Shown here one piece after another: positions 6,813 to 25,922 of a stretch of DNA of 36,510 bases. This DNA comes from Prevotella sp. (lineage in GTDB: Bacteria; Bacteroidota; Bacteroidia; Bacteroidales; Bacteroidaceae). The translations under genes and the position numbers were made by a program. The DNA is taken from assembly GCA_017965725.1 (NCBI GenBank), contig JAGCPK010000055.1:1-36510 (forward strand). Reading direction: 5' to 3'. The notes below the pieces were generated by a model, which saw only the letters and a program-made list of their open reading frames with translations, had not been told where the DNA came from and ran no database searches. Every line of letters begins with the position of its first letter. Position 1 is the first letter of the stretch.

Positions 6813-6862
6813 ATAAAAAAACAGCAGTTTGAATAGTTTTTGAACATTTTTTGCGTTTTTAT

Positions 6863-6893
6863 TTGGTAGTTTCAACAAAAATGCCTACTTTTG
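6863..6893 (+). promoter_or_regulatory. Bacteroidetes-type promoter for the sigma factor gene
   Basis: TTG (6863-6865), a 20-nt spacer and TACTTTTG (6886-6893). The predicted transcript start is near 6900, giving a leader of about 65 nt. Confidence 0.7.
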
Positions 6894-6967: not shown

Positions 6968-7564
6968 ATGAGTACATTCAAAGAAATGACCGACGAACAG
7001 TTGGCATTGCTTTACATCGATGGTAATAACAAAGCATTCGACGAATTGCTTTCTCGTGTCCAAGACAAAGTATTCACCTATATCATGTATTTGGTGAAGG
7101 ATGCAGACGTGGCTAATGACCTATTTCAAGAGACCTTTATCAAGGCCATCACGAAACTGCAAAACGGACTTTATACAGATTCCGGTAAGTTTCTGTTCTG
7201 GATCAACCGCATTGCCCACAACGTCATCATCGACCATTTCCGCGCCATCAAGGGGGAACATATCATTGAACCTACGAAGGACAACGACCTGCAGAACCTG
7301 AAGGGTGTATCTGTGATGGACACCTATCGTGAGAGTGAGATGGTGAATGAACAGGTGAAGAAAGATGTAAAACGACTGATGAATGCCCTGCCTGAGTCAC
7401 AGCGTGAGGTGGTCTATATGCGATTCTTCCAGCAGATGTCGTTCAAGGAGATTGCCGAGGAGACAGGCGTCAGCATCAACACATCGCTGGGTCGTATGCG
7501 CTATGCACTCATCAATCTGCGAAAGATGACGAGACAGCATCAGGTGAATCTGAATCTAGAGTGA
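6968..7564 (+). CDS. RNA polymerase sigma-70 factor, ECF-type
   Basis: A 198-residue sigma factor with region 2 (about 25-95; AFDELLSRVQDKVFTYIMYL, then DLFQETFIKAI, FLFWINRIAHNVIIDHFR) and region 4 (about 135-190; LPESQREVVYMRFFQQMSFK, then EIAEETGVSINTSLGRMRYA, the helix-turn-helix that reads the -35 region). Regions 1 and 3 are absent, as in ECF factors. There is no anti-sigma or SusCD-type gene next to it, unlike many Bacteroidetes ECF factors, so regulation by an adjacent membrane anti-sigma is unlikely. The region 4 tail is short. The last 9 bases overlap convergently with the 3' end of rpe, with no terminator visible between them. Confidence 0.93.
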   Translation: MSTFKEMTDEQLALLYIDGNNKAFDELLSRVQDKVFTYIMYLVKDADVANDLFQETFIKAITKLQNGLYTDSGKFLFWINRIAHNVIIDHFRAIKGEHIIEPTKDNDLQNLKGVSVMDTYRESEMVNEQVKKDVKRLMNALPESQREVVYMRFFQQMSFKEIAEETGVSINTSLGRMRYALINLRKMTRQHQVNLNLE

Positions 7565-18863: not shown

Positions 18864-18958
18864 GGGGGCAAATATACGGTTTATTTACATTCTTTGCAAG
18901 TTTTTAGGCAAAAAAATGCACTTTTTCTTTCAATTTTTAAAAAAATAGGGCAGAAAAT

Positions 18959-18989
18959 TTGCAGAAAAGAACAATTATGTGTAATTTTG
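18959..18989 (+). promoter_or_regulatory. Bacteroidetes-type promoter of the trp operon
   Basis: TTG (18959-18961), a 20-nt spacer and TAATTTTG (18982-18989). Transcription should begin near 18995, about 25 nt before the leader-peptide ATG. Confidence 0.75.
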
Positions 18990-19018
18990 CACCCAGATTG
19001 ATACAAAAACGATAAGAT

Positions 19019-19063
19019 ATGAAATGTATGTATAACATTTGGTGGTGGCGCTCTCGAGATTAA
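19019..19063 (+). CDS. trpL: trp operon leader peptide (MKCMYNIWWWRSRD)
   Basis: A 14-codon ORF begins ATG at 19019 and ends TAA at 19061-19063. Codons 8, 9 and 10 are three consecutive TGG (Trp) codons at 19040-19048. Trp is normally the rarest residue, so a run of three in a tiny ORF between the trp promoter and trpB is a strong signature of ribosome-mediated attenuation. Ribosomes would stall here when charged tRNA-Trp is scarce, leaving the segment from 19066 free to pair downstream. The peptide itself probably has no other role. The ORF is too short to be found by usual gene callers. Confidence 0.85.
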   Translation: MKCMYNIWWWRSRD

Positions 19064-19065
19064 AA

Positions 19066-19143
19066 CAGTCGCGAGGCTCACAGCCGTATGTTATCACCAG
19101 AGATAGAAGAAGGCTCGTCGCGACTGCGGCGAGTCTTCTTTTT
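19066..19143 (+). promoter_or_regulatory. trp attenuator: antiterminator segment and intrinsic terminator
   Basis: The terminator has arms AGAAGGCTCGTCGC (19108-19121) and GCGGCGAGTCTTCT (19126-19139), 14 pairs with two G-U, loop GACT, then a T run to 19143. The competing antiterminator is CAGTCGCGA (19066-19074) pairing perfectly over 9 bp with TCGCGACTG (19118-19126), which covers the 3' end of the first terminator arm, the loop and the first base of the second arm. The antiterminator segment begins 3 nt after the leader stop codon, so a ribosome that finishes the leader would mask it and termination would follow. A ribosome stalled on the Trp codons would leave it free and transcription would continue into trpB 31 nt after the T run. 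Confidence 0.85.
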
Positions 19144-19174
19144 GTCAAAGATCACACAAAAACATCAAAATAAA

Positions 19175-20383
19175 ATGAAAGAAAACTATTTTGTAGATGA
19201 AAGAGGTTTTTACGGAGAATTCGGAGGAGCATATGTGCCAGAGATTCTCTACAAGTGCGTACACGACCTGCAGGATGCTTATCTGCCCATCATCGAGTCG
19301 GAGGAATTCAAACAGGAGTATCATGCCCTGTTGAAAGATTATGTGGGAAGACCTTCCCCCCTTTACTTCGCCAAGCGCATGAGCGAGCAATACGGCTGTC
19401 AGATGTACCTGAAGCGTGAGGACCTGAACCACACTGGTGCCCACAAGATCAACAACACCATCGGACAGATCCTATTGGCAAAGAAGATGGGCAAGACGCG
19501 TATCATCGCAGAGACAGGAGCCGGCCAGCATGGTGTGGCTACAGCAACTGTCTGCGCCCTGATGAACATGAAATGCGAAGTGTTTATGGGAGCCACTGAC
19601 GTAGAACGCCAGCACACCAACGTGGAACGTATGAAGATGTTGGGGGCTGAGGTGCATCCTGTTCGCACAGGTAACATGACACTGAGTGATGCCTGTTCTG
19701 AGGCCATCCGCGACTGGTGCTGTCACCCGAGTGACACCTTCTATATCGTGGGTTCTACGATGGGTCCGCACCCCTACCCCGACCTTGTGGCACGGATGCA
19801 GAGCGTTATCTCAGAGGAAATCAAATGGCAACTCGAAGAGAAAATCGGGCGCGACTATCCCGACTACCTCATCGCATGCATCGGTGGTGGTTCTAACGCT
19901 GCCGGTACCATCTACCACTATGTCAATGATGAGCGAGTGAAGATTGTACTGGCAGAGGCAGGTGGACACGGTTGGGATACGGACTACACTGCTGCCACCA
20001 TCCACAGAGGGACTGTCGGTATCCTGCACGGCGCAAAAATGCTGGTAATGCAGAATGAGGACGGACAGATCCAAGAGGCTTTCACAATCAGCGCAGGGCT
20101 CGACTATCCAGGTGTAGGCCCCATGCACTGTAATATGGCAAAGAAAGGCCGCACGATAGTGTTGAGTATCAACGACGACGAGGCCATCTACGGCGGTTAT
20201 GAACTGACACGTATGGAGGGTATCATCCCCGCCATCGAGAGTGCCCACGCCATCGCAGCCCTGAAGAAACTGACGTTCAAACCCAACGACGTGGTGGTGC
20301 TCACCGTCAGCGGACGTGGTGACAAGGATGTGGAGACGTATCTCAAGAACAAACAAATGGCAAAGGAATATGGAGACTTTTAA
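19175..20383 (+). CDS. trpB: Tryptophan synthase beta chain
   Basis: TrpB joins indole and serine to tryptophan using PLP. The start MKENYFVDERGFYGEFGGAYVPE at 19175 is canonical; the frame is open back to 19088 but that part is the attenuator terminator. The 402-residue protein has the PLP lysine K91 in NHTGAHKINN, ETGAGQHGVA with the catalytic Glu, the phosphate-binding GGGSNA, and LDYPGVGP. It is first in the operon, the usual Bacteroidetes order. Its 3' end overlaps the trpE start by 14 nt. Confidence 0.97.
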   Translation: MKENYFVDERGFYGEFGGAYVPEILYKCVHDLQDAYLPIIESEEFKQEYHALLKDYVGRPSPLYFAKRMSEQYGCQMYLKREDLNHTGAHKINNTIGQILLAKKMGKTRIIAETGAGQHGVATATVCALMNMKCEVFMGATDVERQHTNVERMKMLGAEVHPVRTGNMTLSDACSEAIRDWCCHPSDTFYIVGSTMGPHPYPDLVARMQSVISEEIKWQLEEKIGRDYPDYLIACIGGGSNAAGTIYHYVNDERVKIVLAEAGGHGWDTDYTAATIHRGTVGILHGAKMLVMQNEDGQIQEAFTISAGLDYPGVGPMHCNMAKKGRTIVLSINDDEAIYGGYELTRMEGIIPAIESAHAIAALKKLTFKPNDVVVLTVSGRGDKDVETYLKNKQMAKEYGDF

Positions 20384-21761
20384 ATACCAAACAACCAGTA
20401 AGACCATTCTGGCGGACCTCTATACCCCCGTCGGCGTGTATATGCGACTGAGGGATATCTATCCACAAAGTGCACTGATGGAGAGTTCCGACTATCACGA
20501 GAAGGACAACTCCCGTTCATTCATCGGCATCAATCCCATGGCGAGCGTTGCCATCGGACATGGTCAGGCCACCATCACCTTCCCCGACGGAAGCATAGAA
20601 CAGCATGAGGTGAACAAGGACTACCGCTCTGACAAGGCCATCCACGCACTGATAGACCGCATCAAGGTGACGGGCAATGATGCCAACGTATGCGGACTCT
20701 ATGGCTACACAAGTTTTAATGCCGTTCGCTATTTCGAGGACATCGCCGTGAAGGATGAGACACAGGAGCGTAACGACGCACCAGACCTCCTATATATATT
20801 ATATAAGGTGGTGATTGTGTTCGATCACTTTAACAACACACTGACCATCGTGTCGTTGGGAGACGAGGCGAAATTGGACACTATCTACAAACAGATGAAC
20901 AAAGCCAATGTCAAGGCCTATGATTTCCATCCGGTAGGTGAGACGACATCACCACTTACAGACGAAGAGCATAAGGCCAATATCCGCAAGGGTATCCAAC
21001 ACTGCCTGCGCGGCGACGTGTTCCAGATTGTGCTTTCACGTAGGTTCGTCCAGAAATACGAGGGCGATGACTTCAAACTCTATCGTGCCCTGCGCAGCAT
21101 CAACCCCTCACCCTATCTCTTCTATTTTGACTTCGGCGGTTTCCGCATCTTCGGTTCCTCCCCTGAGACGCATTGTCGTATCGAAGGCCGTCGTGCCTAC
21201 ATCGATCCTATCGCAGGTACTACAAAACGTACGGGCGATGCTGAAGCCGACCGCAAGGGAGCAGAATATCTGCGCAATGATCCGAAGGAGAATGCTGAGC
21301 ACGTGATGCTTGTCGATCTGGCACGTAATGACTTGAGTCGCAACTGCCACGGCGTGAAGGTTGATTTTTATAAAGACCTACAATACTATTCTCATGTGAT
21401 CCATCTCGTCAGCCGTGTCTCTGGAGAACTCGACGAGGACGCAGATCCCATCAAGGCGTTTATCGACACCTTCCCCGCTGGTACGTTGAGCGGAGCACCG
21501 AAGGTTCGTGCCATGCAACTCATCTCGGAATATGAGCCCCACAACCGTGGTGCCTATGGTGGCTGTATCGGCTACATCGGACTCAACGGCTCACTCAACC
21601 AGGCCATCACCATCCGAACCTTTGTCTCTCGCAATGGTGAACTCTGGTTCCAGGCTGGAGGCGGCATCGTGGCCAAGAGCAATGAGGAATACGAACTGCA
21701 GGAAGTGAATAACAAACTCGGTGCTCTTCGCAGAGCGATCCTTATGGCGGAGAAGATGTAA
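20370..21761 (+). CDS. trpE: Anthranilate synthase component I
   Basis: TrpE converts chorismate to anthranilate, with ammonia from TrpG. The 463-residue protein, starting METFKYQTTSK inside the trpB 3' end, has the feedback-site element LMESSD (36-41; E38, S39), a core with PIAGTTKRTGDAEAD, the metal and chorismate-binding LVDLARNDLSR, PAGTLSGAPKVRAMQ, and GCIGYIGLNGSLNQAITIRT. The frame is open to 20316, but the ATG at 20370, preceded by AAAGGAAT, gives the family N-terminus. Because the ES feedback residues are present, end-product inhibition by Trp is expected. Confidence 0.96.
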   Translation: METFKYQTTSKTILADLYTPVGVYMRLRDIYPQSALMESSDYHEKDNSRSFIGINPMASVAIGHGQATITFPDGSIEQHEVNKDYRSDKAIHALIDRIKVTGNDANVCGLYGYTSFNAVRYFEDIAVKDETQERNDAPDLLYILYKVVIVFDHFNNTLTIVSLGDEAKLDTIYKQMNKANVKAYDFHPVGETTSPLTDEEHKANIRKGIQHCLRGDVFQIVLSRRFVQKYEGDDFKLYRALRSINPSPYLFYFDFGGFRIFGSSPETHCRIEGRRAYIDPIAGTTKRTGDAEADRKGAEYLRNDPKENAEHVMLVDLARNDLSRNCHGVKVDFYKDLQYYSHVIHLVSRVSGELDEDADPIKAFIDTFPAGTLSGAPKVRAMQLISEYEPHNRGAYGGCIGYIGLNGSLNQAITIRTFVSRNGELWFQAGGGIVAKSNEEYELQEVNNKLGALRRAILMAEKM

Positions 21762-21796: not shown

Positions 21797-22360
21797 ATGA
21801 AAATAGTCATCATCGACAACTACGACTCATTCACATATAATCTGAGTCATTTAGTAAAGGAACTTGGCGCAGAGGTGACAGTCTATCGCAACGACCAGTT
21901 CGAACTTTCGCAACTGGAGCCATTCAGCAAGATTATCCTCTCGCCAGGTCCTGGTATTCCCTCAGAAGCGGGCCTGCTGCTCGACGTCATCCGGACATAC
22001 GCTAGTAAGAAACCTATCCTCGGCGTCTGCCTTGGTCATCAGGCCATCGGAGAGGCGTTCGGGGGGAAACTGGAGAATCTCTCTGATGTTTTCCACGGAG
22101 TGGCCACGCCTGCCCATATTATCAGCGATGACCCGCTGTTCTCTGGTCTGCCCACAGACATCACCGTAGGGCGTTACCACTCCTGGGTTGTCTCAAAAGA
22201 AACATTCCCCGACTGTCTGGAGATTACCGCTGAGAGCGACGAAGGCCAAATCATGGCTCTGCGCCACAAGACCTTCAACGTGCGTGGCATCCAGTTTCAC
22301 CCAGAGAGTGTCCTCACCCCCGACGGACGTAAGATGCTCCAGAACTGGCTCTTCCTTTAA
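21797..22360 (+). CDS. trpG: Anthranilate synthase component II (glutamine amidotransferase)
   Basis: TrpG hydrolyses glutamine and passes ammonia to TrpE. The 187-residue class I amidotransferase begins MKIVIIDNYDSFTYNL, has SPGPGIPSEAG, the nucleophile C78 in GVCLGHQAIGEAFGG, and the H168/E170 pair in FHPES. It is a separate protein, not fused to TrpD or TrpE. It sits between two spacers made of the same 9-bp tandem unit. A dual role in folate synthesis (PabA) is possible, since TrpG and PabA are alike, but operon context favours tryptophan. Confidence 0.96.
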   Translation: MKIVIIDNYDSFTYNLSHLVKELGAEVTVYRNDQFELSQLEPFSKIILSPGPGIPSEAGLLLDVIRTYASKKPILGVCLGHQAIGEAFGGKLENLSDVFHGVATPAHIISDDPLFSGLPTDITVGRYHSWVVSKETFPDCLEITAESDEGQIMALRHKTFNVRGIQFHPESVLTPDGRKMLQNWLFL

Positions 22361-22392: not shown

Positions 22393-23403
22393 ATGGCACA
22401 AACAATGAAAGACATCCTGAACAGGATGCTGAACCACGAGGAACTGTCTCGTGAAGAAATGAAGAATATCCTGATTGGTATCACACAGAGTGAATATCCG
22501 ACAGAACAGATCACTGCGTTATTAACTGCCTTGCAGATGCGTGGCGTCACCGTCGATGAACTGCTCGGTTTCCGCGACGGTATCCTTGAGACGGGTGTAC
22601 CCGCTATTCTCAATGCTGACCGTTACATCGATGTCGTAGGCACTGGCGGCGACCGCAAGAACACCTTTAACATCTCAACAACCAGTTGTTTTGTTATTGC
22701 AGGTGCAGGCTATAAGGTGGCCAAGCACGGCAACTATGCCGCTACATCCGTTTCTGGTGCATCAAATGTGATTGCCCATCATGGCATCAAGTTCACTGAT
22801 GACATCGACAAACTGAACCGCAGTCTCAACGAAGCCGGCATCGTCTATCTACACGCCCAACTCTTTGCCAAGGCCATGAAGTTTGTTGGACCCATCCGCA
22901 AGGCACTGCAATTCCCGACAATCTTTAATTTACTAGGCCCACTGGTTAACCCTAGTCAACCCAGTTGTCAGTTACTCGGTGTGGCCAACCTCGACCAGAT
23001 GCGCCTCTACAACCAGGTCTATCAGAAAATCGGTATCGACTACGGTATCGTCAACTCCATCGATGGTTACGACGAGATTTCGCTGACCGGCGACTTCAAG
23101 GTGACCACCAAGCAGTACGAGCGCATCTTCAAGCCTCAGGACCTCGGTTTCGAGATTGCCAAGCCCGAGGAACTTGTGGGTGGTGCCACTGAGGAAGAAG
23201 CCGCTCAGATCTTCGACTCTGTTCTTGAGAATCGCGCCCTGCCCGCCCAAAAGAATATCGTTCTGGCAAACGCTGCTTTCGGTATCCAGGTATTGGAGAA
23301 GGGCGAGAAGACCATTGAGGAGTGCATTGCCATCGCCCGCGAATCCATCGACAGCGGTGCTGCTCTCCGCACTTTCAAGAAGTTCGTCGAACTAAACAGT
23401 TAA
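22393..23403 (+). CDS. trpD: Anthranilate phosphoribosyltransferase
   Basis: TrpD transfers phosphoribose from PRPP to anthranilate. The 336-residue protein has the PRPP/Mg loop VVGTGGDRKNTFNIST (81-96), KHGNYAATSVSGASNV (111-126; the usual KHGNRSVSS is changed but the KHGN is kept), and NLLGPLVNP. The length is typical. It stands alone, not fused to TrpG. The spacer to trpC is unusually long (142 nt) and holds a triplicated 27-bp repeat. Confidence 0.96.
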   Translation: MAQTMKDILNRMLNHEELSREEMKNILIGITQSEYPTEQITALLTALQMRGVTVDELLGFRDGILETGVPAILNADRYIDVVGTGGDRKNTFNISTTSCFVIAGAGYKVAKHGNYAATSVSGASNVIAHHGIKFTDDIDKLNRSLNEAGIVYLHAQLFAKAMKFVGPIRKALQFPTIFNLLGPLVNPSQPSCQLLGVANLDQMRLYNQVYQKIGIDYGIVNSIDGYDEISLTGDFKVTTKQYERIFKPQDLGFEIAKPEELVGGATEEEAAQIFDSVLENRALPAQKNIVLANAAFGIQVLEKGEKTIEECIAIARESIDSGAALRTFKKFVELNS

Positions 23404-23545: not shown

Positions 23546-24331
23546 ATGGATATACTCGAAGAGATTGTAGCCCATAAGCGGTTGGAGGTTGAGCGTTTCA
23601 AAGCGCAACTCAGCGAACGAGAGATCCATCGTCTGGTGGAGCCGTTGATGGCGACTGACGTGCCATCGATGTCGCAGGCTCTGACGGCTTCCGACTCAGG
23701 CATCATCGCCGAGTTCAAACGTAAGTCACCGTCCAAGGGCTGGATCAAGGAAGAGGGAAAGGCTGACGTCATCCCCTTCTCCTACCAACAGAATGGTGCT
23801 GCTGCACTGAGCATCCTCACCGATGAGAATTATTTCGGAGGCTGTGATGAATTCATCCGCACAGCACGGACATCTGGCGTGACGATACCCATACTCTACA
23901 AGAATTTCGTCATCGACGAATACCAACTCTTCCAGGCACGGCTCTGTGGGGCGAGTGCAGTGCTGCTCATCGCTGCCGACCTGACGAAAGTAGCGTGCAA
24001 GACCCTCCTTCATACCGCCCACGAACTGGGACTTGAAGTATTACTGGAGATGCACGCTGAGCCGGAACTGGAATATGCAGAACTGGAGCCCGATATGTGT
24101 GGTATCAACAACCGTAACCTCGGCTCATTCGTTACCGATGTACAGAATTCCTTCCGTCTCGCAGAACTGCTTCCCAAAGATGCAGTGAAGGTCAGCGAGA
24201 GTGGAATCTCGAATCCCGACATCGTCCGTAACCTACGCCAAGCCGGTTTCCGAGGGTTCCTTATCGGCGAGAACTTCATGAAGACAGCCGAGCCTGGTCA
24301 GGCACTTAACGACTTTATTCAGAAGATATGA
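23546..24331 (+). CDS. trpC: Indole-3-glycerol phosphate synthase
   Basis: TrpC closes the indole ring from CdRP. The 261-residue TIM-barrel protein starts MDILEEIVAHKRLEVER, has IIAEFKRKSPSKGWI (E56, K58), the general-acid K119 in PILYKNFVIDEYQ, the Glu in EVLLEMHAE, GINNRNL, and SESGIS. The residue after K119 is Asn where Asp is common (KDF); it is not one of the catalytic residues. It overlaps trpF by four bases (ATGA). It is not fused to TrpF, unlike in E. coli. Confidence 0.95.
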   Translation: MDILEEIVAHKRLEVERFKAQLSEREIHRLVEPLMATDVPSMSQALTASDSGIIAEFKRKSPSKGWIKEEGKADVIPFSYQQNGAAALSILTDENYFGGCDEFIRTARTSGVTIPILYKNFVIDEYQLFQARLCGASAVLLIAADLTKVACKTLLHTAHELGLEVLLEMHAEPELEYAELEPDMCGINNRNLGSFVTDVQNSFRLAELLPKDAVKVSESGISNPDIVRNLRQAGFRGFLIGENFMKTAEPGQALNDFIQKI

Positions 24332-25035
24332 TGATCAAGGCTGCGATGAAGAGAGAGCAAAGCCAAACTTGTTTGGGCTTAGCCGAGCGTGAGCAGGCTC
24401 GACGAGAAAAATCTTTTCTCGTCAAGGTTTGTGGCATGCGTGATGTGGAGAACATCCGCGAGGTGGAGGCTTTGGGCATCGACCTGATGGGCTTTATCTT
24501 CTGGCCCAAGTCCAGCCGTTTCGTCAGTGAGCGCCCTGCCTATCTGCCCACAAGATGCAAACGTGTCGGGGTGTTCGTCGATGAGGATATTGAACAGGTA
24601 CGGCACATGGCCGACGACTATGACCTCGACATTATCCAACTCCATGGCTCTGAATCGCCGGAATACGCCAGTCAACTCCGTGAATGGGAAGTCATCAAGG
24701 CCTTTAACATCGCTACGACAGAGGATTTAAAGACAACGAAACCCTACGAAGGTATTGTTGACTGTTTTCTCTTCGACACACGGATGCCCCTCGAGGAAAA
24801 AGGGGACGGACTTGCGCCTGGGGGCACAGGGAAAAAGTTCGACTGGAACGTGCTCTCAGCCTATGATGGCACGACCCCCTTCCTACTCAGTGGCGGCATC
24901 GGCCCTGATGATGCTGAGCGCGTAAAAGCCATACACTATCCCAAGTGCATCGGCATAGATCTCAACTCCCGCTTTGAGATAGCACCAGGGCTTAAGGATG
25001 TTAACACCCTCGCCCGTTTCCTCAAAGCACTATAA
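24328..25035 (+). CDS. trpF: Phosphoribosylanthranilate isomerase with odd N-terminal extension
   Basis: TrpF isomerises PRA to CdRP. From residue 31 the protein is canonical: LVKVCGMRD with catalytic Cys35, GFIFWPKSSRFV, KRVGVFVDE, IIQLHGSE, a late LFDT with the catalytic-type Asp, LLSGGIGPDD, and IGIDLNSRFEIAPGLKD. Normal TrpF proteins start at or just before this LVKVCG. Here about 29 extra residues (MMIKAAMKREQSQTCLGLAE, then REQARREKSF) precede it, and the DNA encoding them carries two hairpins. No ATG or GTG lies in frame just before LVKVCG; only TTG at L16 could serve. The ATG at 24328 overlaps the trpC stop as ATGA, so the extension is probably translated. Confidence 0.93.
   Translation: MMIKAAMKREQSQTCLGLAEREQARREKSFLVKVCGMRDVENIREVEALGIDLMGFIFWPKSSRFVSERPAYLPTRCKRVGVFVDEDIEQVRHMADDYDLDIIQLHGSESPEYASQLREWEVIKAFNIATTEDLKTTKPYEGIVDCFLFDTRMPLEEKGDGLAPGGTGKKFDWNVLSAYDGTTPFLLSGGIGPDDAERVKAIHYPKCIGIDLNSRFEIAPGLKDVNTLARFLKAL
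24360..24423. repeat. Hairpin-rich insertion-like segment at the 5' end of trpF
   Basis: A perfect 10-bp stem GACGAGAAAA (24401-24410) / TTTTCTCGTC (24414-24423) with loop ATC ends exactly at the conserved TrpF core. An imperfect hairpin is seen upstream at 24360-24380 (AAGCCAAAC ... TTTGGGCTT). The reading frame of trpF runs through both. Confidence 0.6.
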
Positions 25036-25096: not shown

Positions 25097-25876
25097 ATGA
25101 ACAAGATTAATACACTATTCGCCGAAAGGCCACAAGACAAGAAATTCCTCAGTCTTTATTTCTGCGCCGGTAGTCCGACACTTGAAGGAACGGGCGACGT
25201 GATAAAAACCATGCAACGCCGGGGTATTGACTTCATCGAGGTCGGCATCCCTTTCAGCGATCCGTTGGCTGACGGTCCCGTCATCCAGAGTGCCGCCACC
25301 CAGGCGCTGAAGAACGGCATGAATCTCAAGACACTCTTCGCCCAACTCAGTGAGATCAAGAATGAAGTCACCATCCCCCTCATTCTTATGGGTTACCTCA
25401 ATCCTATTCTGCACTACGGCATCGAGGCATTTTGTCAGTCTTGTGCTGACAGCGGTGTATCTGGCATGATTATCCCCGATCTACCCTTCAAGGACTATCA
25501 GGACATTGTGAAGCCCATCGCCGACAAATACGACCTACGCGTCATCATGCTCATCACGCCCGAGACCAGTGAGGAACGCATCCGCTTCATTGACGACAAT
25601 ACGGATGGCTTCATTTATATGGTGTCATCTGCTGCTATCACAGGTGCACAGAAATCGTTCGACGATGCCAAACAAGAATACTTCCGTCGTATCAACGCCA
25701 TGAACCTGCGCAACCCCCGTATGATTGGGTTCGGTATCAGCAACAAGCAGACCCTCAAGGCTGCACAAGATAATGCCGCAGGCGCCATCATCGGTTCCAA
25801 GTTCGTTACTCTACTTAATGAGAGCAAGGATGCCGACGAAGCCCTCGACAAACTCTTCGAAGCCCTCGAAAAATAA
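25097..25876 (+). CDS. trpA: Tryptophan synthase alpha chain
   Basis: TrpA cleaves indole-3-glycerol phosphate and channels indole to TrpB. The 259-residue TIM-barrel protein has catalytic E48 in [19 protein letters not shown] and D59 in [21 protein letters not shown], and GFGISNKQT. The usual YLVSRAGVTG is MVSSAAITG, a variation in a loop region. It is the last gene of the trp operon and is followed by a strong terminator. Confidence 0.96.
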
Positions 25877-25893: not shown

Positions 25894-25922
25894 AGGACTG
25901 GCAGTGATGCCAGTCCTTTTTT
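25894..25922 (+). terminator. Intrinsic terminator of the trp operon
   Basis: Perfect 9-bp arms AGGACTGGC (25894-25902) and GCCAGTCCT (25909-25917), loop AGTGAT, then a T run. Confidence 0.88.

Follow-up and report, generated by a model that had tools for sequence, protein, structure and literature searches.

A trp operon leader in Prevotella with the features of a ribosome-mediated transcription attenuator

In a Prevotella sp. genome (GCA_017965725.1), a short ORF with consecutive Trp codons and a terminator hairpin lie between a promoter and trpB, which raises the question of whether the trp operon is controlled by ribosome-mediated attenuation. We analyzed 36,510 nt of contig JAGCPK010000055.1 (hereafter, the window), which belongs to an assembly of 2.66 Mb in 161 contigs. 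The closest named relatives of its TrpB among the matches listed, which may leave out records very near the window's own genome, are from rumen and gut Prevotella with at most 97% identity. Based on profile matches, the window contains a complete trp gene set in the order trpB-E-G-D-C-F-A, as follows.

19175..20383, + strand: trpB, first gene of the operon (TIGR00263, 562.7 bits, cut-off 392.45)
20316..21761, + strand: trpE (TIGR00564, 421 bits, below the cut-off of 517.7)
21797..22360, + strand: trpG (TIGR00566, 192.9 bits, cut-off 121.05)
22393..23403, + strand: trpD (TIGR01245, 295.4 bits, cut-off 199.05)
23546..24331, + strand: trpC (NF001377, 289 bits, cut-off 260)
24328..25035, + strand: trpF (NF002295, 159.4 bits, below the cut-off of 216)
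25097..25876, + strand: trpA (TIGR00262, PF00290)
25894..25922, + strand: terminator-like hairpin with T-run, 3' of trpA (terminator scan)

The hairpin at 25894..25922 is the probable end of the operon, and the true start of trpE probably lies further in than that of the listed ORF. The trpB frame is open in the 5' direction through the leader terminator as far as an ATG at 19088 (19088-20383). Because close relatives match from 19175, we took this position as the trpB start, and we regard the N-terminal extension from 19088 as a chance occurrence.

Upstream of trpB, we identified the following elements.

18958..18989, + strand: Bacteroidota-type promoter, TTTG (18958-18961)-N20-TAATTTTG (18982-18989), by sequence pattern
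19019..19063, + strand: leader ORF of 14 codons, MKCMYNIWWWRSRD, with a TAA stop (19061-19063), by sequence and homologous leaders
19040..19048, + strand: TGG TGG TGG, the putative Trp sensor codons, by sequence
19053..19061, + strand: region 1, pairing with 19067-19075 when ribosome-free, by folding; the homologous helix covaries
19066..19074, + strand: region 2, the antiterminator 5' arm CAGTCGCGA, by sequence and folding; the majority-register helix covaries
19082..19085, + strand: AGCC, second segment of region 2, with the antiterminator partner GGCT at 19112-19115
19118..19126, + strand: region 3, the antiterminator 3' arm TCGCGACTG, by sequence and folding
19106..19143, + strand: intrinsic terminator, 16-bp stem 19106-19121/19126-19141 and T-run 19139-19143, by sequence, folding, and covariation

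A preliminary description had proposed a promoter, a leader with three Trp codons, an antiterminator, and a terminator before trpB; all are present in this order, and its coordinates were right to within one or two bases. The 9-bp antiterminator that it placed beside the leader stop was confirmed, with the first arm beginning at the third base after the stop codon and the two arms (19066-19074/19118-19126) forming a perfect 9-bp complement. The terminator is likewise present, with a stem of 16 bp instead of the 14 bp proposed. A generic terminator scan of the window did not list this hairpin; we suggest that its stem absorbs the Us that the scan expects behind a hairpin.

To judge how readily such elements arise by chance, we counted them in the window and in shuffled sequences. 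The promoter pattern at this spacing occurs twice in the window versus 0.08 expected, and transcription would start near 18995. The second perfect TTTG-N20-TAnnTTTG pattern is located at 6862-6893, upstream of an ORF at 6968. The motif TGGTGGTGG alone is not rare: it occurs 119 times in the genome and twice in the window versus 0.40 expected, and 7 of 100 shuffles contained it at least twice. A short ORF with three consecutive Trp codons and a terminator behind it is found once in the window and in none of 100 dinucleotide shuffles, which together gave four short ORFs with such a run. Reading the sequence 5' of the leader ORF, we found no evident Shine-Dalgarno sequence, as the preliminary description had pointed out; the particular interest that it attached to this was overstated, since a passage in PMC9723704 presents initiation independent of a Shine-Dalgarno sequence as usual in Bacteroidota.

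The 171-nt leader folds with −57.1 kcal/mol (z −5.4), and none of 200 shuffles reached an energy as low. The hairpin of regions 1 and 2 (1:2 hairpin) has 19053..19061/19067-19075 as its core and outer arms that reach 19030-19097, while region 3 spans the terminator 5' arm, the loop, and the first base of the terminator 3' arm. By sequence and folding, the window combines a leader ORF containing codons for the regulated amino acid with mutually exclusive 1:2, 2:3, and 3:4 helices, of which the last is the intrinsic terminator. On the strength of these parts, their conservation, and their covariation, we read the leader as a ribosome-mediated transcription attenuator of the trp operon, with a probability of roughly 0.9.

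According to this model, transcription would proceed from near 18995, and a ribosome would start translating the leader at 19019. When charged tRNA-Trp is in short supply, the ribosome would stall at 19040-19048 and hide region 1; region 2 (19066-19074 together with AGCC at 19082-19085) would then be able to pair with 19112-19126 while the terminator is still incomplete, and RNA polymerase would continue into trpB. When Trp is abundant, the ribosome would reach the stop codon at 19061-19063 and cover region 2 to approximately 19074, and the terminator would form. If no ribosome is present, region 1 would finally hold region 2, and the terminator would also form. A ribosome covers approximately 15 nt from its P site; the footprint, the kinetic competition, and the Trp response in this model are what we infer from the arrangement of the elements.

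We folded the window RNA minus the part lying under the ribosome at several exposed lengths. Whichever of the three Trp codons the ribosome was stalled on, the 9-bp antiterminator formed with RNA exposed to 19126-19134; with a ribosome at the stop codon, it formed at none of the eight lengths tried. Without a ribosome, the antiterminator was the minimum-energy fold at one length (19126), after which the 1:2 hairpin and the terminator took its place. For a stall at the third Trp codon, the complete terminator had a lower energy than the antiterminator (−32.2 versus −26.3 kcal/mol); therefore, antitermination must be kinetic, i.e., decided before the terminator is finished.

Next, we surveyed 100 genomes of the genus, of which 76 contain trpB (E ≤ 1e-80). 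Upstream DNA was taken for 75 of the 77 trpB hits outside the window, omitting one at a contig start (in genome G070) and one fragment (in genome G095). A Trp-codon leader is present upstream in 71 of these 75 loci as well as in the window. In the remaining four, trpB is preceded by 17 to 1928 nt before the contig ends, and each of these genomes has a leader on a different contig; for G095, a leader was read at a separate locus (L014). By genome, the leader is present in 75 of the 76 with trpB, the remaining one being G070, in which trpB lies at the contig start. In a set of named organisms, which partly overlaps with the genus survey, the leader was found at 79 of 80 loci, and the exception has 161 nt of upstream sequence. 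One of the cultured relatives sharing this architecture is Prevotella (Xylanibacter) ruminicola KHT3 (locus L249). The preliminary description had named relatives lacking both the Trp-codon run and the terminator as evidence that would count against it; the idea survived this comparison, in which the leader was nearly always found and its pairings covaried.

Among 72 aligned leaders, the longest Trp run is three codons in 66, four in 2, two in 3, and one (as W-R-W) in 1. The sequence TAnnTTTG is located 17-54 nt 5' of the leader ATG in 68 of the 72 (median, 28.5). In 69 of the 72, the first base of region 2 lies no more than 15 nt upstream and no more than 6 nt downstream of the end of the leader stop codon, a position at which a ribosome on the stop codon would cover this region.

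To assess covariation, we used an alignment of these 72 leaders (71 distinct rows), in which one leader (L042) that the terminator finder missed and whose hairpin is visible was kept with an assumed end. The counts of cells changed on both sides are 26 for the 1:2 helix (shuffle mean, 9.3), 40 for the antiterminator (16.6), and 113 for the terminator (24.2), with none of 500 shuffles as high in any of the three. The rows are related, and these changes may represent few events. The fractions of cells paired are 96.3%, 87.0%, and 96.6%, respectively. The number of pairs with a change on both sides is a weak measure: it is 3 versus 1.8 for the 1:2 helix (25 of 500 shuffles as high) and 5 versus 3.6 for the antiterminator (74 of 500), and the terminator alone stands clear of the shuffles (1 of 500 as high). 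The number of further pair types in the 1:2 helix was reached by 128 of 500 shuffles. The terminator loop is changed in nine rows, including that of the window, whose antiterminator is displaced onto the 5' arm; since this register differs from that of the majority, the antiterminator counts are no direct test of the window's register. By duplex energy, a weak discriminator, most antiterminators are unremarkable (12 of 71 rows had no more than 2 of 50 shuffles of equal strength; median z, −0.54), and for the window's row, 1 of 50 shuffles was as strong.

RNAalifold, unaided, predicted the 1:2 hairpin and the terminator, and in this consensus 1:2 hairpin, GGC at the end of the Trp run is paired with GCC of the conserved AGCC. 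The outermost AGCC pair of the antiterminator (columns 55/119) holds in 24 of 71 rows. In region 2, column 44 pairs with column 27 in one helix and with column 132 in the other. Across the 72 rows, the triple 27/44/132 reads A-T-A in 34, G-C-G in 22, A-T-G in 13, G-T-A in 2, and G-C-A in 1, with the A-T-G rows having a G-U pair in the antiterminator. We take this covariation of one base with two alternative partners as comparative evidence that supports the switch itself. In 69 of the 72 rows, column 27 falls on the third base of a Ser codon (TCA or TCG), and the change therefore leaves the peptide unaltered; the window differs in that a one-base alignment gap places another codon there. All 72 rows have C in column 24, which is a third codon position in 70 of them, and columns 21 and 33 are highly variable. 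We take these patterns to suggest that the S-R conserved in most leaders reflects RNA pairing and not the peptide.

We compared the leader with catalogued RNAs. When riboswitches and other catalogued RNAs were sought, no Rfam family reached its gathering score in the window. The best match spanning the leader is Bacteroid-trp (RF01692), which covers model positions 1-131 at 18999-19119 (E = 0.011 and 0.0064 in all-family scans) with 36 bits and a gathering score of 49. RF01692 is a tryptophan peptide leader in Rfam with Trp codons and a 1:2 hairpin, like the leader examined here, and the window has the expected Trp-codon leader upstream of trp genes in a member of the Bacteroidetes; unlike this leader region, the model stops inside the terminator 5' arm and contains neither the antiterminator nor the terminator. 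Since 36 bits is below 49, we file the leader as a subthreshold relative of RF01692 and not as a curated member.

E. coli-type Trp leaders have Trp codons, regions 1 to 4, and mutually exclusive helices. The leader in the window follows the same logic and belongs to a different sequence family, matching Trp_leader (RF00513) with 18.6 bits and a gathering score of 41; in contrast to RF00513, it has a promoter of the Bacteroidota type and is not preceded by an evident Shine-Dalgarno sequence.

The predicted attenuator in the window is not new in kind. Bacteroid-trp appears as a cis-regulatory element of Bacteroidetes in a 2010 table (Weinberg, PMC2864571), a section of PMC6414381 discusses it upstream of the Flavobacterium psychrophilum trp operon, and a passage in PMC7366714 mentions short ORFs in B. 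thetaiotaomicron that are reminiscent of attenuating leader peptides. The suggestion in the preliminary description that the frequency of attenuation in Bacteroidetes is less explored was too strong, given a family named in 2010 (PMC2864571, in its table). Among the open-licence papers that our searches listed, none states in its title or abstract opening that a Bacteroidota trp attenuator was tested experimentally.

Within the genus, the element extends further than the database shows. At E ≤ 0.1, RF01692 matched 50 of the 100 genus genomes and none of the 24 genus genomes without trpB. Its gathering score misses most members in the genus, with 4 of 100 genomes passing versus 76 with trpB and 75 of these with a leader. 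Beyond the genus, it matched 64 of 151 family genomes at E ≤ 0.1 and 34 of 296 phylum genomes at E ≤ 0.01, in searches whose stricter filters lose weak matches (the window itself was missed in the phylum search). In ten distant matches, the TGGTGGTGG run is present in nine and a shorter run in one (L300, same family); in five of the ten loci, which lie on the minus strand, the Trp codons appear as the reverse complement (CCACCACCA). We note that the 24 genus genomes without trpB at the threshold used include several of 99% completeness and are possibly those of Trp auxotrophs.

The long, structured 5' region, conserved in the genus, would also be expected if the leader bound tryptophan or a protein directly, as a riboswitch or in a TRAP/TrpR-like manner, with the small ORF being incidental. 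We consider this very unlikely: each of the 72 aligned leaders contains Trp codons, region 2 tracks the stop codon in all except three, and the best Rfam match spanning the leader, below its gathering score, is a peptide leader. Even less credible is a constitutive terminator with a chance ORF that marks the boundary after the upstream kinase gene and merely lowers trp expression. The hairpin and T-run as well as the abundance of TGGTGGTGG in the genome would fit such a terminator; in contrast, it would not account for the promoter, leader, and antiterminator that precede it, the covariation of both alternative helices, the near-constant presence of the leader in genomes with trpB, or the lack of the combination in shuffled sequences.

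Alternatively, the leader could act mainly via translational coupling or reinitiation at trpB and not via transcription termination. A passage in PMC4833913 proposes that leader genes located closely 5' of structural genes raise translation; in the same source, the distances in Bacteroidetes peak in frequency at 11-14 bp, versus 111 nt between the leader stop and trpB in the window. Moreover, a terminator with a T-run stands between the two. This explanation, too, has little probability in our view, and the data favor transcription attenuation. For the attenuator, the comparative evidence is strong, and the mechanism predicted from the sequences is classical. By sequence comparison, a textbook control circuit is near-universal among the trp operon carriers of a large gut and rumen genus, and it could serve to test transcription-translation coupling in bacteria in which initiation is not Shine-Dalgarno based.

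For the genus as a whole, it seems likely, with greater reservation than for the window, that leader-peptide attenuation is a standing control of aromatic amino acid synthesis, comprising the trp leader and an unclassified Phe/Tyr leader of pheA with an antiterminator arm inside the leader ORF. In that case, ribosomes initiating independently of Shine-Dalgarno sequences would follow RNA polymerase closely enough to exert this control, and the trp leader would retain its front position in the operon despite a rotated gene order.

In the window's own genome, the region upstream of pheA (G000:C1; positions 1306-1383 of locus L120) contains the leader MSLLNAYFYGYYFYFAGNCEAVGRK. Within this ORF, GTGAAGCGG is complementary to CCGCTTCAC of a terminator hairpin, and the 161-nt region folds with a z of −5.0. 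Among the pheA loci (L116-L137; 22 of 30 genus genomes with the gene), all 22 have a Phe/Tyr leader (at least five Phe/Tyr in 10 codons), and 21 have TAnnTTTG at most 70 nt upstream of it. A perfect complement of at least 8 nt that includes AGCGG is present in 15 of the 22; in the other seven, the longest complement is shorter or located elsewhere. Scans of three pheA loci (L120, L130, and L116) up to E = 1 gave no match to an Rfam leader family, and the only two Rfam matches, both in L116, were far below their gathering scores. PMC9723704 reports that in Flavobacteriaceae, a conserved 5' element without an Rfam hit precedes pheA, and it gives clues that amino acid operons are preceded by leader-peptide attenuators; therefore, the pheA leader is not wholly new.

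For the his, ilv, and thr genes, leaders were read using crude thresholds and ATG starts only. One of 19 hisG loci (L114) has a short ORF with three His in six codons and the other 18 have nothing, and we make no claim of a His leader. No leader was visibly shared between genomes upstream of ilvD/ilvB (10 genomes) or thrA (9 genomes). One ilvD locus (L199) has a short ORF containing Val/Ile codons 109 nt before the gene, with no counterpart in the other nine.

Finally, 22 of the 72 loci have 999 to 4720 nt between the trp leader and trpB. In genome G023 (L053 with L215), the sole case followed on both sides, Pfam matches place trpD, C, F, and A between the leader and trpB and trpE and trpG domains after trpB, giving the order leader-D-C-F-A-B-E-G. 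This order is a rotation of the B-E-G-D-C-F-A in the window, with the leader still in front. Most of the other loci with a distant leader have similar ORF lengths, but there are three ORFs in L069 and one in L073; in L012 and L014, a trpD-like ORF, as read from its sequence, follows the leader.
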